Origin: an uncultured Bacteroidales bacterium
GTDB taxonomy: Bacteria > Bacteroidota > Bacteroidia > Bacteroidales > UBA4417
NCBI GenBank assembly: GCA_903946925.1
Contig: CAJAXK010000493.1
Location: forward strand, 1-44,212
Direction: 5' to 3'
DNA length: 44,212 nt
Shown: positions 2,521 to 41,999 of the stretch, piece after piece
Numbering within the stretch: the stretch's first letter is position 1
How the letters are laid out: each line of letters opens with the position of its first letter
Translations under genes and position numbers: made by a program
Notes under the pieces: model-generated
Database searches by the model: none
The model's input: the letters and a program-made list of their open reading frames with translations, nothing else
What the model was told of the DNA's origin: nothing

Positions 2521-2610
2521 AAGCTCACAAACCCAGCTCCAAAACTAAAATCGAAGAACAGGTTCTATCCAAAAATCAGATTGCCATTTTTTTTATGTCA
2601 ATTTCAGAAA

Positions 2611-3240
2611 ATGGTGGATGAGCAAGCCGTTTTAAGTTTAATTACCAATAAAATTATTGCCAAAACCATGATCCAGCCACCAATCGAAAACAAAGTTTTT
2701 GATAAAATAGACTTTACTACAACCCGCATAGCAAGAGTAGAATATGACAATTGTATATTCAAAAACTGCAATTTTTACAGTACCAATTTGTCCAACATGA
2801 TTTTTCGCCAATGTAGTTTTGATGGTTGCGATTTCAGTTTGTCAGAATTCAAAAACACAACTTTACACGACATTAATTTCACAAATTGCAAATTGCTGGG
2901 TGTACAATTTAGCGAATGTAACAGTTTTTTGCTTTCGGTTAGTTTTGAGGATTGTGTGCTGAATATGGCAGTATTTTACAAGCTGAAACTAAAAAAAACA
3001 TCCTTTAAAAACTGCAATCTCCATGAATCCGATTTTACTGAAACGGATCTAACAAGCTCAATATTTGATAACTGTGACCTTCAACGAGCCATATTTTACA
3101 ATACCAACCTCGAAAAAGCTGATTTCCGGACATCGTACAACTATACTTTCGACCCCGAACGCAACCGAATTAAAAAGGCCAGGTTTTCACGCTTAGGTGC
3201 AATCGGATTGCTGGAGAAATATCAAATTATAATTGAATAG
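2611..3240 (+). CDS. Pentapeptide-repeat protein
   Basis: A 209-aa protein (start ATG 2611; ATG 2668 is also possible). From about residue 25 to 180 it has a five-residue periodicity of the form A(D/N)(L/F)xx, here with many NC/DC pairs: CIFKNCNF, CSFDGCDF, INFTNCKL, TSFKNCNL, SIFDNCDL, AIFYNTNLEKADF. Such repeats fold into a right-handed quadrilateral beta-helix. No signal peptide or membrane segment is seen, so it is probably cytoplasmic. The family includes gyrase-protecting proteins (Qnr, MfpA), but most members have no known role and nothing here points to gyrase. The abundance of Cys at repeat positions is notable. A TTG at 2581 would add ten residues of non-homologous sequence and is less likely. 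Confidence 0.88.
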   Translation: MVDEQAVLSLITNKIIAKTMIQPPIENKVFDKIDFTTTRIARVEYDNCIFKNCNFYSTNLSNMIFRQCSFDGCDFSLSEFKNTTLHDINFTNCKLLGVQFSECNSFLLSVSFEDCVLNMAVFYKLKLKKTSFKNCNLHESDFTETDLTSSIFDNCDLQRAIFYNTNLEKADFRTSYNYTFDPERNRIKKARFSRLGAIGLLEKYQIIIE

Positions 3241-3336
3241 AACAGAAATAAGCTTTCCATGGATGATTTGAATTAACAGAATCCAGAATCCTGAAATAAA
3301 TCCAACAGTATGGTTTGTCAGGAAATGTAGATCAAC

Positions 3337-3406
3337 CCGCAATCCGACATCCGCAATCCGCAATCCGCAATCCGACATCCGACATCCGCAATCCGACATC
3401 CGCAAT
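3337..3406 (+). repeat. Ten-unit heptamer array abutting a stop codon
   Basis: Exactly ten 7-nt units, each either CCGCAAT (A) or CCGACAT (B), in the order A B A A A B B A B A, with no other variation. The array touches the TGA stop (3406-3408) of the minus-strand deacetylase-like gene. Confidence 0.95.
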
Positions 3407-4719
3407 CAACTCCCCTCAACCGCTTTTTCCACCATTTTTATATACACATCTAACCAGCCTTTCCACTCATCCTCGTTGGTCAAAGTTGAATTGTGCCATA
3501 AAGGCATAAAGGTTCCGCCCACTTTTTTAACTTCAGTAATAAGCTCGCCAATCTCTTGGTTTGCCTGTTCGGGTGTAAGCTTCATGTATTGGTTCAGGGT
3601 TCCATCCATAACAGTAAAAGGGTGCAAAATCAAATCGGTAGGCAAATCCTGATCCAGATCGTAGAAAGGATAAGGGGTACAAATGGATGCCCTAAACCCG
3701 GCGACTTCCGCGTAACCCATTGTATAATCGTGTGTTATGTCGTTGTTTATAAGGTTTCGGTAAGTTTCGGGAAGTATTAGTTTCAAGAAATGCTGACGGC
3801 TGTGGTTTACCTCGCGTTTCAGGATTTTGGCAAGCCTAGCAATTTCAGTCGAGATGAGCGAAGGCTGTAACGATGATGCATACGAAGGGTGGATCCCAAT
3901 TTCGGAATAATCGGCCAAAAGCCGGATCAAAGCTCTGAAATACCTATTGTTGTGAGGGATATTTTTATCGTTGGGGCCATAATCGGCCAGAAGTATGAAA
4001 TAAGTAGCCCTGTATTTGTATTTTTTCTGCAACATCATCTGTAGTTCGAAAGTGTCGAACGGATCGTGTTCCAATCCCACTAAAACCCTCGCCCTTTGTT
4101 TGACATTATCGAAATCCTTCTTTTGCAAAGCTTTAAAAATGCCGCCAATTGCACGGGTCAGCCCTTTATTTTTATATGCGTAAGCAGCATCCACATCAAT
4201 GGTAGGGGCAAATTCGTATTTTGGAAGCCTAAAAACCAAATCGGGGAACCGGGTTTGTAGAATCTCTTTCAACATGAGTGACCAAGTATTTACCACTGGT
4301 TTTTGCAGGTATCCTTTCTGAAACGCATCGCTTCCAGATGCCAGAAATCGGTTATGCTCATCACGGAGATGTGGCAAATATTCTTCGTATCGGCTTGTTA
4401 AATAGAAACATGCAGCAAATAAATCGAAGGGTAGAGCAGATTTATCGTCATGACAAGGAAAGAATACAATCCCATTCTTGAAAACGAAATGCGTAAGATC
4501 AATTGCTGAGATTTTACTCTCGAAAAGCAAATGGTTGGACGCGAAAAACAGAAATTTGGGATCAACTTTAACCCCATAAGAAAATTTTGCTCCTGAATGG
4601 GATTCAAATTCTGAAACATCCTTTGTAAACTTTATGGGAAGCCCTAACAAGCGCACAAGCACTAGCTGCATGGCATAATGCAAGCGGTTGGTTTCTTTAG
4701 GGACAAGGATTAATACCAT
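3406..4719 (-). CDS. Polysaccharide-deacetylase-like protein (DUF7033 type)
   Basis: A 437-aa protein of a type common in Bacteroidota, with an N-terminal ~150-residue domain of unknown function and a C-terminal NodB/polysaccharide-deacetylase-like TIM-barrel. The deacetylase part shows a FAPTIDVDAAYAY motif (metal-binding Asp region), then EIGIHPSYAS (His-containing motif 2) and a late PLWHNSTLTNE segment (His near the active site). The ATG at 4719 was chosen over one at 4767 because the extra 16 residues would form only a short hydrophobic leader that overlaps the divergent promoter zone of rsmG. Likely substrate is an envelope polysaccharide, but this is inference. It has its own transcription unit, divergent from rsmG. 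Confidence 0.75.
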   Translation of the reverse strand: MVLILVPKETNRLHYAMQLVLVRLLGLPIKFTKDVSEFESHSGAKFSYGVKVDPKFLFFASNHLLFESKISAIDLTHFVFKNGIVFFPCHDDKSALPFDLFAACFYLTSRYEEYLPHLRDEHNRFLASGSDAFQKGYLQKPVVNTWSLMLKEILQTRFPDLVFRLPKYEFAPTIDVDAAYAYKNKGLTRAIGGIFKALQKKDFDNVKQRARVLVGLEHDPFDTFELQMMLQKKYKYRATYFILLADYGPNDKNIPHNNRYFRALIRLLADYSEIGIHPSYASSLQPSLISTEIARLAKILKREVNHSRQHFLKLILPETYRNLINNDITHDYTMGYAEVAGFRASICTPYPFYDLDQDLPTDLILHPFTVMDGTLNQYMKLTPEQANQEIGELITEVKKVGGTFMPLWHNSTLTNEDEWKGWLDVYIKMVEKAVEGS

Positions 4720-4790
4720 AAACAAAAAAGTTATTAAGCAAAAGTAAGCTTTTTGTTGGGTAACCAAATGCCACTGAATGCAAATCCTTT

Positions 4791-5642: not shown

Positions 5643-6146
5643 ATGCAATTGCAAATCATACAAAATAAGATTTATGACATCAGAGGTCAGAAAGTGATGC
5701 TTGATTTCGACCTTGCAATATTGTACGAAACTGAAACCAAAAGGCTTAAAGAAGCAATAAGACGGAATATTGACCGTTTTCCCTCTGATTTCATGTTTGA
5801 AATCACTAAAAGTGAATTTGAGATTTTGAGGACGCAAATTGCGACCTCAAAACGAGGAGGTGTCAGGTATCTCCCTTTTGCATTTACAGAACAAGGGGTT
5901 GCCATGCTATCAAGTGTATTGAACAGTTCTAAAGCAATACAGATTAATATGCAAATTGTAAGGGCTTTTGTTTTCGTTCGACAATATGCCTTGTCACATC
6001 AAGACCTTACTGAACGACTGATGGAATTAGAGGGTAGATATGACCAGAAATTTAATGATGTTTACGAAGCATTGAATTATCTTCTGGAAAAAGACACATT
6101 GACAACAGAACAGAAAGAGCGCCAAAGGATAGGATATAAATTATAA
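5643..6146 (+). CDS. ORF6N domain protein (phage-antirepressor type)
   Basis: A 167-aa protein. Residues ~5-90 match the ORF6N domain: IIQNKIYDIRGQKVMLDFDLAILYETETKRLKEAIRRNIDRFPSDFMFEIT, then RTQIATSKRGGVRYLPFAFTEQGVAMLSSVLNS. This domain is found in phage antirepressor-like proteins and in many chromosomal copies in Bacteroidota. The remainder is a helical, likely coiled-coil tail (LTERLMELEGRYDQKFNDVYEALNYLLEK). No toxin or phage partner lies beside it; its neighbours are rsmG and pepD, so it looks like an isolated, possibly horizontally acquired gene. DNA binding is inferred from the family. Confidence 0.88.
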   Translation: MQLQIIQNKIYDIRGQKVMLDFDLAILYETETKRLKEAIRRNIDRFPSDFMFEITKSEFEILRTQIATSKRGGVRYLPFAFTEQGVAMLSSVLNSSKAIQINMQIVRAFVFVRQYALSHQDLTERLMELEGRYDQKFNDVYEALNYLLEKDTLTTEQKERQRIGYKL

Positions 6147-10180: not shown

Positions 10181-10200
10181 GATGGTTAGTTTTTTTTTGG

Positions 10201-10248
10201 GTTTAGGCTGTTAGGCTTTTAGGTGTTTAGGCTGTTAGGCTTTTAGGT
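10201..10248. repeat. Octamer array, two 24-nt super-repeats
   Basis: Six 8-nt units of the form nnTTAGGn (GTTTAGGC, TGTTAGGC, TTTTAGGT) given twice in exactly the same order: two perfect 24-nt direct repeats. It lies between the M14 stop and the menC start on the minus strand. Confidence 0.9.
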
Positions 10249-27816: not shown

Positions 27817-28176
27817 ATGAAAACAGATAATATTGTTCAAGAAAAGTCATTTGCTTTTGCCATAAGAATTGTAAACTTCTACAAATTCCTGATAGCAGAA
27901 AAGAAAGAATATATTTTATCAAAGCAACTGTTAAGAAGCGGAACTTCTATTGGAGCGAATGTTGAGGAAGCAATTGGCGGTGTATCGGACAAAGATTTTT
28001 TGAATAAATTGGGCATTGCATACAAAGAAGCAAGAGAAAGTATCTATTGGCTCATACTTTTATATGCCACAGACTACATTACAAAAAACGAATTTGAAAG
28101 CCTGTTTAATGATGCAGAAGAAATCTGTAAAATTCGCTGTAAAATTCAAATAACTCTAAAAAACCGTAACTCGTAA
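27817..28176 (+). CDS. Four-helix-bundle protein (23S rRNA intervening-sequence type)
   Basis: A 119-aa all-helical protein: VQEKSFAFAIRIVNFYKFL, KKEYILSKQLLRSGTSIGANVEEA, DFLNKLGIAYKEARESIYWL and the final helix. The LLRSGTSIGANVEEA motif is the signature of the four-helix-bundle/S23 family (TIGR02436), originally named from intervening sequences in 23S rRNA and related to the Avd protein of diversity-generating retroelements. It interrupts an otherwise standard adaptor-pump pair and is flanked by short repeats in opposite orientation (TTACGAA before, TTCGTAA after), consistent with insertion as a cassette. Its last codons and stop lie inside the downstream array. No retroelement is seen. 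Function unknown; nucleic-acid binding is inferred. Confidence 0.9.
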   Translation: MKTDNIVQEKSFAFAIRIVNFYKFLIAEKKEYILSKQLLRSGTSIGANVEEAIGGVSDKDFLNKLGIAYKEARESIYWLILLYATDYITKNEFESLFNDAEEICKIRCKIQITLKNRNS

Positions 28177-28213
28177 TTCACAACCCGTAATTCGTAATTC
28201 GTAATTTTTAATT
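28165..28213 (+). repeat. Heptamer array over the four-helix-bundle stop codon
   Basis: Seven units: CGTAACT, CGTAATT, CACAACC, three CGTAATT, TTTAATT. The TAA stop (28174-28176) lies in the second unit. It ends 8 nt before the RND ATG. Confidence 0.9.
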
Positions 28214-31350: not shown

Positions 31351-31415
31351 AATGTGGGATGTTGGATGGCGGATGTGCGATGTGGGATGGTGAATGTGGA
31401 AAGTGGGAGTAGGAT
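31339..31415 (+). repeat. Heptamer array over the RND stop codon
   Basis: About eleven 7-nt units of consensus TGTGGGA (sense GATGTGG), beginning within the last codons of the RND gene and including its TAG. Units drift: TGTTGGA, TGGCGGA, TGTGCGA, TGGTGAA. It is the same sense-strand family as the arrays ending at 3406 and 10295. Confidence 0.8.
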
Positions 31416-31505
31416 GGTAATTTTAGATGTGGAAATCAACATTTTGGTAAGTTCCCGCCTTCTGACTTCCACCCTCACAAATACAGCATTCTTAAACCAA
31501 AAATA

Positions 31506-32860: not shown

Positions 32861-33567
32861 AACTCCCAATGCCGAAATTGAAAAAGGCAATAACGAGTCC
32901 GCTCCGAAAAGTCTTTTTTTGCCACAAAGGCACAAAACCTCTAAGTTTACTCACAATTGCTTGTTTTCAAGGTGTTCGTGATACCGCTTCGCTGAGTTCA
33001 CAAAATTTATAGTGCTGATTAACAACACTCTGTGTGCCTCTGTGTCCTCTGTGCTGCTTCGGAAAGCTCAGCACATCGCTCCGTGGTTTTCTTTTTTTGA
33101 GGGTTCTCGGAGCGGATTCAATATTCCTTTGGCCGACCTTGGCTTAAAGAAAAACTAAAAATATGTATCCTGAAAATTATTGTAGAATAATAAGCTGCCC
33201 ATAATAAACGCTATAGCAAAAGCGGGCATCTGTGCTCGTTGAAACATTTGAAATCTTTATATACATTTGTGCTGACAGGCTTTGTGCTGCAATTTATCCA
33301 CCTACACCAGACCTTCAACCTTTTTACCAGTGTGCAACTATCTCCCGCACCAGCCAATAAATACTTGATATAGGTTAGCCACAGCTGCATCGATGAAGGC
33401 GAAGCAGAATAATGCAACCATAAAAGCCCAGTCAATTAGCGCTTGGTTTTAGCTCAACCATTTTTTAATCCCTTGTTGTTGGCAACAACCTATATTGTTT
33501 TGTTTGCCTATTTGCTGCTATATACATTCGGCTTAACTACATGTCCTTTGCATGTAACAAAATATCG
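32861..33567. other. Gene-free gap with one dispersed element
   Basis: The 738-nt gap before the amylase start contains the 225-bp element (32895-33119), then ~450 nt with no recognisable gene. It ends in the promoter of the GH13 gene. A TTGTTG/CAACAA inverted pair is at ~33473-33488. Confidence 0.55.
32895..33119. repeat. 225-bp dispersed element, copy 1 (MITE-like)
   Basis: Terminal inverted arms GAGTCCGCTCCGA (32895-32907) and TCGGAGCGGATTC (33107-33119) match at 12 of 13 positions. The interior has TTGCCACAAAGGC near the left, a CTCTGTG-rich run and CCGTGGTTTTC near the right. Copy 2 is at 38450-38673. No coding capacity. Confidence 0.85.
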
Positions 33568-38449: not shown

Positions 38450-38673
38450 GAGTCCACTCCGATAAGTCTTTTTTGCCACAAAGGCTCTAAATCTCTAAGT
38501 TTACTAATAATTGCTTATCCTTAAAGGAATTCACTTCGGCAAGCTCAGTACATCGCGTAATATCGCTTCGCTTTGTTCACAAAGTTTAAAGAGAGATTAA
38601 CAATACTCTGTGTACCTCTGTGTCCTCTGTGCCTCCGTGGTTTTCTTTTTTTTAGGGTCTTCGGAGTGAACAC
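38450..38673. repeat. 225-bp dispersed element, copy 2 (MITE-like)
   Basis: Arms GAGTCCACTCCGA (38450-38462) and TCGGAGTGAACAC (38661-38673) pair at 11 of 13. Relative to copy 1 the seventh base of the left arm changes G to A and its partner changes C to T, so pairing is kept. A 23-nt internal module (38534-38556) occupies a different place than in copy 1. Confidence 0.85.
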
Positions 38674-40516: not shown

Positions 40517-40590
40517 GTGGATGTTGAAGTGGTTAGGGGTGCCGGGTTCAGGGTGCCAGGTGCCGGATGCCGGGTTCAAAGTGCCGGGTA
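40517..40590 (-). repeat. GC-rich heptamer array between trpB and trpA
   Basis: Seven-nt units for about ten turns: plus-strand GTGCCGG, GTTCAGG, GTGCCAG, GTGCCGG, ATGCCGG, GTTCAAA, GTGCCGG at 40539-40587, with more degenerate units back to 40517. It begins just upstream of the trpA start codon. Confidence 0.85.
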
Positions 40591-41921: not shown

Positions 41922-41999
41922 AATCTCCCAATCTCCCCTCTTCCCATCTCCCAGTCTTGTCCCATTTCTCCGCTTCCCTTCTCCCAGTCTCCCCTCTTA
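41922..41999 (-). repeat. Purine-rich (coding strand) 7/8-nt array after trpF
   Basis: On the minus strand, units of GGGAGAn type such as GAGACTGG, GGGAGATG and GAGATTGG. It begins directly after the trpF stop. It shares an exact 18-nt segment with the array after fabH. Confidence 0.8.

Follow-up and report, generated by a model that had tools for sequence, protein, structure and literature searches.

How does a bacterial genome come to contain a tandem array whose units are spelled in exactly two ways? The question is raised by ten consecutive heptamers at positions 3337–3406 of a 44,212-nucleotide stretch of DNA from an uncultured Bacteroidales bacterium—the window, by which we mean the whole stretch analysed. 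With unit starts at 3337, 3344 and so on to 3400, the plus strand reads CCGCAAT, CCGACAT, CCGCAAT three times, CCGACAT twice, CCGCAAT, CCGACAT and CCGCAAT; on the minus strand the same units are GGATTGC and GGATGTC. Writing A for CCGCAAT and B for CCGACAT, the order is ABAAABBABA. The initial annotation had described ten such units with no third variant and no indel, in a block ending at a stop codon, and direct reading of the window bears this out: there are zero third spellings and zero indels, and the last base of the array, 3406, is the A of a minus-strand TGA stop codon (3406–3408), so that the tract overlaps the stop. Tandem Repeats Finder gives the tract as 3333–3407 with a period of 7, and no other stretch of the window reaches 32 of 40 matches at an offset of seven bases. 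Because base 3407 also agrees with the unit that would come next, the array itself provides the stop codon's GA.

The gene that ends in this stop (3406–4767, minus strand) is found in 14 of 16 same-genus genomes with the source genome counted; it has a domain match to DUF7033 (PF23019), and we take its product to be of a polysaccharide-deacetylase-like kind. Its convergent neighbour, a pentapeptide-repeat protein gene on the plus strand (2581–3240), ends 96 bases before the array. A search of window positions 3150–3500 returned zero terminator-like sites, and an intrinsic terminator here was rejected on that ground; a known RNA family was likewise rejected, with zero matches at the gathering score within the window. 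Nothing at the locus suggests a new enzyme or system.

The array has a great deal of company. Eight arrays scoring at least 50 are found in the window versus none in Markov-resampled sequence, and a 20-contig sample of the same genome (175,530 bases), the one set picked blind to arrays, contains 27 versus two in its resampled counterpart. In the source genome, a 498-contig draft that we denote G000, a search for three consecutive CCGMMAT units gave 257 overlapping matches (141 + 116) and the reversed control gave none; the 100 matches listed correspond to about 40 separate arrays by hand count. From 481,327 bases of this genome, in stretches mostly selected for containing the CCGMMAT word, we assembled a set of 36 arrays, whose 274 units fall into 19 spellings: CCGCAAT is the commonest (130 units), followed by CCGAAAT (40), CCGACAT (38), CCCACAT (12), CCACAAT and CCCCAAT (10 each) and CTGCAAT (9), with others rarer. 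The array at 3337–3406 is therefore one of many similar intergenic heptamer loci, and is not unusual in its genome.

Two fixed spellings, which the initial annotation had considered a special property, are not supported as one. Having exactly two is no rule of the genome: it holds for 14 of the 36 arrays and for four of the 18 with at least seven units, and for five of the 13 arrays of three related genomes. If ten units are drawn at random according to how often each occurs in the 36 arrays, the probability of at most two spellings is 0.019. Other arrays do carry ordinary point changes, and the altered units sometimes stand in runs—CCCACAT, for example, three or four times consecutively—so such changes arise and then seem to undergo amplification. 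Two neighbouring bases separate A from B, and the intermediates between them, CCGAAAT and CCGCCAT, are both absent from the ten-unit array; judging from these spellings, the B units more likely came into the array complete than evolved there stepwise.

On the opposite strand each unit consists of GGAT followed by a variable triplet. GGAT (complement ATCC) forms the most 7-nt chains among the 256 tetramers, with 42 in the DNA fetched from the source genome, although this ranking is favoured by the choice of stretches. The triplets that follow GGAT in 229 units are mainly TGC (108), GTC (34), GTG (25) and TTC (23). Many arrays also abut other short-unit words, such as GGTTATT, GGTTGATG and CCCACAT, forming composite tracts; a single genome holds many different word families.

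The placement of these arrays is far from even. Between genes lie 86 of 105 arrays, though open reading frames cover 84.4% of the 467,491 bases concerned (p = 6e-51); genes were taken as greedy open reading frames of at least 100 codons, and several of the 19 arrays inside frames look like over-long starts. A flanking stop lies within 10 nt at 24 of 89 flanks and a flanking start at eight of 79 (Fisher p = 0.006, a somewhat generous value because arrays sharing one gap were counted apart). Divergent gaps hold eight of 84 arrays (p = 0.026 when set against their share of gap length). Of the 14 arrays found no further than 40 nt from a stop, 10 carry GGAT on the coding strand; with p = 0.18, a strand rule is not demonstrated.

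The genus has many arrays whose units can be recognised by their triplet, so unit order can be used as a record of growth. In the source genome, units two apart (lag 2) are identical in 89 of 200 pairs, versus 69.5 (sd 5.5) after permutation, and none of 2000 permutations reached the observed count; a replicate set of 25 arrays from the related genomes G006, G008 and G009, drawn from listed matches, gives 75 of 145 versus 48.0 (sd 4.9), again with 0 of 2000 permutations reaching it. The lag-1 excess is weak in the source genome (96 of 234 versus 83.1, p = 0.0175) and absent from the replicate set (54 of 170 versus 57.4). Lag 3 shows no rise in either set and lags 5 and 6 show none in the replicate set; lag-4 identity is 37 of 132 versus 42.4 in the source genome and 38 of 98 versus 31.4 in the replicate (p = 0.065). 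With the lag-2 excess present in both sets and lag 1 weak or absent, duplication seems to involve two-unit blocks more often than single units. The initial annotation had proposed unit-wise copying, by shuffling, conversion or templated addition. The lag-2 excess, the unit and spelling differences between orthologues described below and the recurrence of composite tracts speak for copying of this general kind; templated addition, in contrast, found no evidence. We also observed, in a GGAT array of G009 (locus L209, contig C76), a cycle of four triplets, TTG GTC TTC GTT, that repeats as a 28-nt higher-order unit.

Comparison of related species shows how changeable these loci are. At the site of the ten-unit array we examined the 150 bases past the DUF7033 stop in 13 relatives, a comparison at species level. 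Arrays of the same type follow the gene in four of them (G011, G012, G008 and G001), with differing spellings and unit numbers; one, G014, has other short words there, and eight (G002, G003, G004, G005, G007, G009, G010 and G013) have no array behind the gene. G011, whose locus is identical to record CAIRHD010000503.1 (uncultured Bacteroidales bacterium), reads GGATTGG GGATTGG GGATTT immediately past the stop, and in G001 (the contig of record DGQJ01000143.1, Bacteroidales bacterium UBA4417) the units, GATTGCG and GATGTTG, begin within the stop codon just as the window's array does. Between G012 and G008, about 89% identical in DNA, the site differs by 25 nt, G012 being the longer; this is not a multiple of 7. 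The initial annotation had asked for unit-level changes across strains, and had named their lack, in relatives without the array, as the outcome that would count against it: the number and spelling of units do differ between species in the four, but the eight empty sites are part of that adverse outcome.

Another orthologous array numbers 15 units in the source genome and seven in G011. The former reads A four times, B, CCACAAT, B, A, B, A, B, B, CCACAAT, B, B; the latter reads A, CCCCAAT and A five times. On one side of this locus conservation reaches the array; on the other it begins only some tens of bases away. B is absent from the G011 array, yet it is present elsewhere in that genome. 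Among the length differences between species, those of 25, 20, 33 and 93 nt are not multiples of 7, whereas one of 56 nt at the site of the ten-unit array is.

Array DNA also recurs between loci. A 31-base composite pattern is found six times on three contigs of the source genome and once in G011, and is absent from the other 14 genomes searched. When the loci with composite tracts on contigs C59, C135 and C170 of the source genome and C214 of G011 were compared (about 3 kb each, one 1.6 kb), matches were confined to the array tract; that they end there fits the copying of array DNA between sites, without proving it, and a tract common to different contigs could also descend from an older duplication. 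More broadly, 12-mers are shared among 61 of 79 array clusters, versus 23 to 33 of 79 size-matched pieces, which is a weak contrast. One pair of loci, L012/L070, aligned at about 71% and was left out of account.

Within the genus, the CCGMMAT word has matches in 11 of 16 genomes, the source genome counted, and none in five. Two of the genomes that lack it hold arrays of other kinds: a GTGATGA/GTGGTGA heptamer array of 26.6 copies in G007 (locus L126, 15284–15469), and 21.1 tandem copies of CCATCTCC/CCATCTCG-like octamers in G002 (locus L120, 16610–16778). In a sample of the order, by hand count, the word was found in 16 of 393 genomes (13 outside the genus) versus 10 of 393 for the reversed control, and on these numbers we rejected it as a mark of the whole order; outside the genus the only clear standouts are G311, G235 and G377, with 94, 40 and 27 matches. 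The looser GGATNNN pattern was present in 56 of 392 genomes of a phylum sample versus 44 for the reversed control (the control by hand count), so mere presence says little; at least 20 matches, however, were found in 12 genomes versus two for the control (hand counts). Among the matches listed, other lineages of the phylum use other triplets. In a collection of viral contigs, 69 stretches (loci L128–L196) carry three GGATKKC units followed by GGAT; these stretches may be host DNA.

What process would produce such arrays? We consider it likely that units are added and removed by slippage or by unequal exchange, one or two at a time, with mutation supplying new spellings and with occasional copying from array to array. 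Replication slippage or unequal exchange would change an array by a single unit or, especially, by a pair (14 nt); new spellings would arise from point mutations, some of them amplified afterwards; and array DNA would now and then be copied into other loci by recombination or template switching at short matching stretches. A two-spelling array would then be the expansion of a seed that held only those two units, and arrays may persist near stop codons because length changes there do little harm. MutS repair is expected to miss loops of 7 or 14 nt. Loss of mismatch repair, considered as a cause, was rejected: a MutS domain is found in 15 of the 16 same-genus genomes, the source genome included, so mismatch repair has not been lost, and the exception, G006, is an array-rich draft that is 90% complete. 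In the source genome there are two MutS_I matches, at 18096 on contig C405 and at 1027 on contig C472; the latter is a short frame with an internal stop, possibly a fragment or contamination. Several observations stand against slippage. The ten-unit array itself has no lag-2 excess (4 of 8), the lag-1 excess is weak or absent, several of the length differences depart from multiples of 7 and the site lacks an array in most relatives examined, and the data are drawn from comparisons between species only. Moreover, slippage alone leaves unexplained the recurrence of the same words at many sites and in some other families.

That recurrence could be given more weight. If gene conversion between arrays were the main engine and local slippage minor, one would understand why composite tracts reappear on separate contigs, similar only as far as the tract extends, and why B is in the second array of the source genome and missing from its G011 orthologue while present elsewhere in G011; however, the lag-2 excess and the four-unit cycle are traces of local block duplication, and array lengths and unit orders vary widely from locus to locus, so we find this reading rather unlikely. 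A bolder reading, which we hold to be unlikely, is that the arrays form a self-spreading vocabulary: an active process would copy short composite tracts (GGAT-triplet plus other 7–8 nt words) between unrelated intergenic gaps and rewrite arrays in 14-nt steps. Each lineage of Bacteroidota would have a word list of its own, and this copying would keep the words of one genome alike. Selection on a functional element—a protein-binding site, a weak two-layer G-quadruplex or a transcript-end signal, with GG every 7 nt on the strand of the preceding gene—is in our judgement quite improbable. The arrays do lie near stop codons, and the available text of PMC4692102 describes heptamers of Xanthomonas and Nostoc that lie on the coding strand near stop codons, some overlapping the stop, with oligonucleotides that form G-quadruplexes; but the coding-strand preference is the 10 of 14 given above, the terminator search around the ten-unit array came back empty, the units have GG pairs only, and arrays come and go between related species while their spelling changes freely.

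Templated addition, in which an RNA-templated or dedicated polymerase would write the units in the manner of telomerase and a degenerate template would yield the two spellings, seems to us very improbable. A small set of exact words is common to many sites and several species, the variable triplet is strongly restricted, mainly to the four forms counted above, and the array-rich genomes G000, G006 and G009 have reverse-transcriptase matches. Array-rich G015 (a 93% complete draft), however, is without a PF00078 match, G002 and G005 have one and three such matches without having the CCGMMAT word, a single genome holds many word families and the runs of altered units are not what a fixed template is expected to give. 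We rejected templating by a reverse transcriptase because PF00078 matches do not track array abundance in the 16 draft genomes, which speaks against this enzyme class; a templating enzyme of this kind does not accompany the repeats there. An assembly artefact or chance has almost nothing to recommend it—the source genome is a many-contig draft and tandem repeats are prone to mis-assembly, but the family's arrays turn up in genomes assembled independently of one another, in contig interiors and at orthologous positions, and the Markov controls yielded 0 to 3 arrays per group.

Heptamer repeats of several kinds are available for comparison. Cyanobacterial short tandemly repeated repetitive (STRR) sequences are heptanucleotide tandem units dispersed in the genome, with CCCCA(A/G)T as one consensus; one of its two forms, CCCCAAT, accounts here for 10 of 274 units, whereas the main unit, CCGCAAT, is another and so is the phylum. 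According to the available parts of PMC4679880 and PMC4692102, an earlier survey of longer simple repeats found that in many bacterial genomes heptamers are the class that is most abundant or over-represented. The available part of PMC4692102 describes GGGAATC (heterogeneous, GGGANTN) in Xanthomonas and GGGGA(C/T)T in Nostoc/Anabaena as dispersed, mostly intergenic, often near stop codons and varying between related species. The arrays studied here resemble these in being dispersed and intergenic, in having a fixed G-bearing core with variable positions, in lying close to stops, with some overlapping the stop, and in varying in length and sequence between related species; the Nostoc heptamers also have two spellings, as the ten-unit array does. 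In contrast to the GGG or GGGG of those repeats, the core here is GGAT plus a variable triplet with GG only, and other word families share gaps with it and form composites. The G-tract of at least three per unit that marks the G-quadruplex heptamers of Xanthomonas and Nostoc is thus lacking in GGATNNN units; GTG and TGG triplets do give GGG or GGGG at unit junctions, but these are a minority (25 and 7 of 229) and there are none in the ten-unit array.

Heptamer repeats have already been described in Bacteroidota: the available text of PMC4679880 reports TAACTGA direct repeats in Beggiatoaceae, Cyanobacteria and five Bacteroidetes. As in our case, these are intergenic, patchy in distribution and in some Bacteroidetes found beside other heptamer repeats; in the available account, however, they have one nearly invariant unit, placed in the main genome mostly just upstream of starts, whereas the units here vary and lie closer to stops than to starts. 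The TAACTGA unit, in which single-base variants are rare, does not match our units or spellings. In lake Planctomycetota populations the available part of PMC9426551 describes intergenic tandem repeats with deletions, for which its authors invoke polymerase slippage; they are likewise intergenic, tandem and varying, and belong to a different phylum. Our literature search found no repeat closer than the Xanthomonas/Nostoc and TAACTGA ones, and we make no claim of absence from print. The tested features of intergenic heptanucleotide repeats—head-to-tail 7-nt units in several copies, dispersal over many loci mainly between genes, and unit number that differs at the same site between related genomes (here at species level)—are all present, while the unit is the family's own. 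The available text of PMC4692102 cites the idea that heptamers favour polymerase slippage, which both it and PMC4679880, as far as their accessible parts go, give only as a hypothesis; the two-unit step, which appears both in the source genome and in the replicate set, offers a concrete, testable clue to how such arrays grow.

The window contains further arrays and repeats. The tandem-repeat scan found a short-unit array of GGAGAGG/GGAGACT words (722–778), an octamer-type array of TTAGGCTG words (10203–10247) and a CGTAATT heptamer array (28165–28206). The octamer-type array, read as TTTAGGC over 10191–10248, matches about twenty short places on G011 contigs. A plus-strand array of GGATGTG/GGATGGC-type heptamers, of the GGAT-plus-triplet class (31352–31416), is about 20 bases longer in G011, a GGGTGCC/GGGTTCA array (40537–40589) is missing from the same site there, and of a AATCTCCC-type array (41922–41957) a 33-base piece at 41940 is missing in that relative. 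Two copies of a dispersed repeat of about 220–240 bases, about 69% identical, lie at 32895–33112 and 38450–38666. The former matches many contigs of G011, and its ends look inverted by eye (TCCGCTCCGA ... TCGGAGCGGA); the ends of the latter (TCCACTCCGA ... TCGGAGTGAA) show a partly paired change. With a CTCTGTG array in its middle, this repeat may be a MITE-like or structured element. The window also encodes, at 5643–6146, a protein with an ORF6N domain (PF10543), a domain common in phages and mobile elements.
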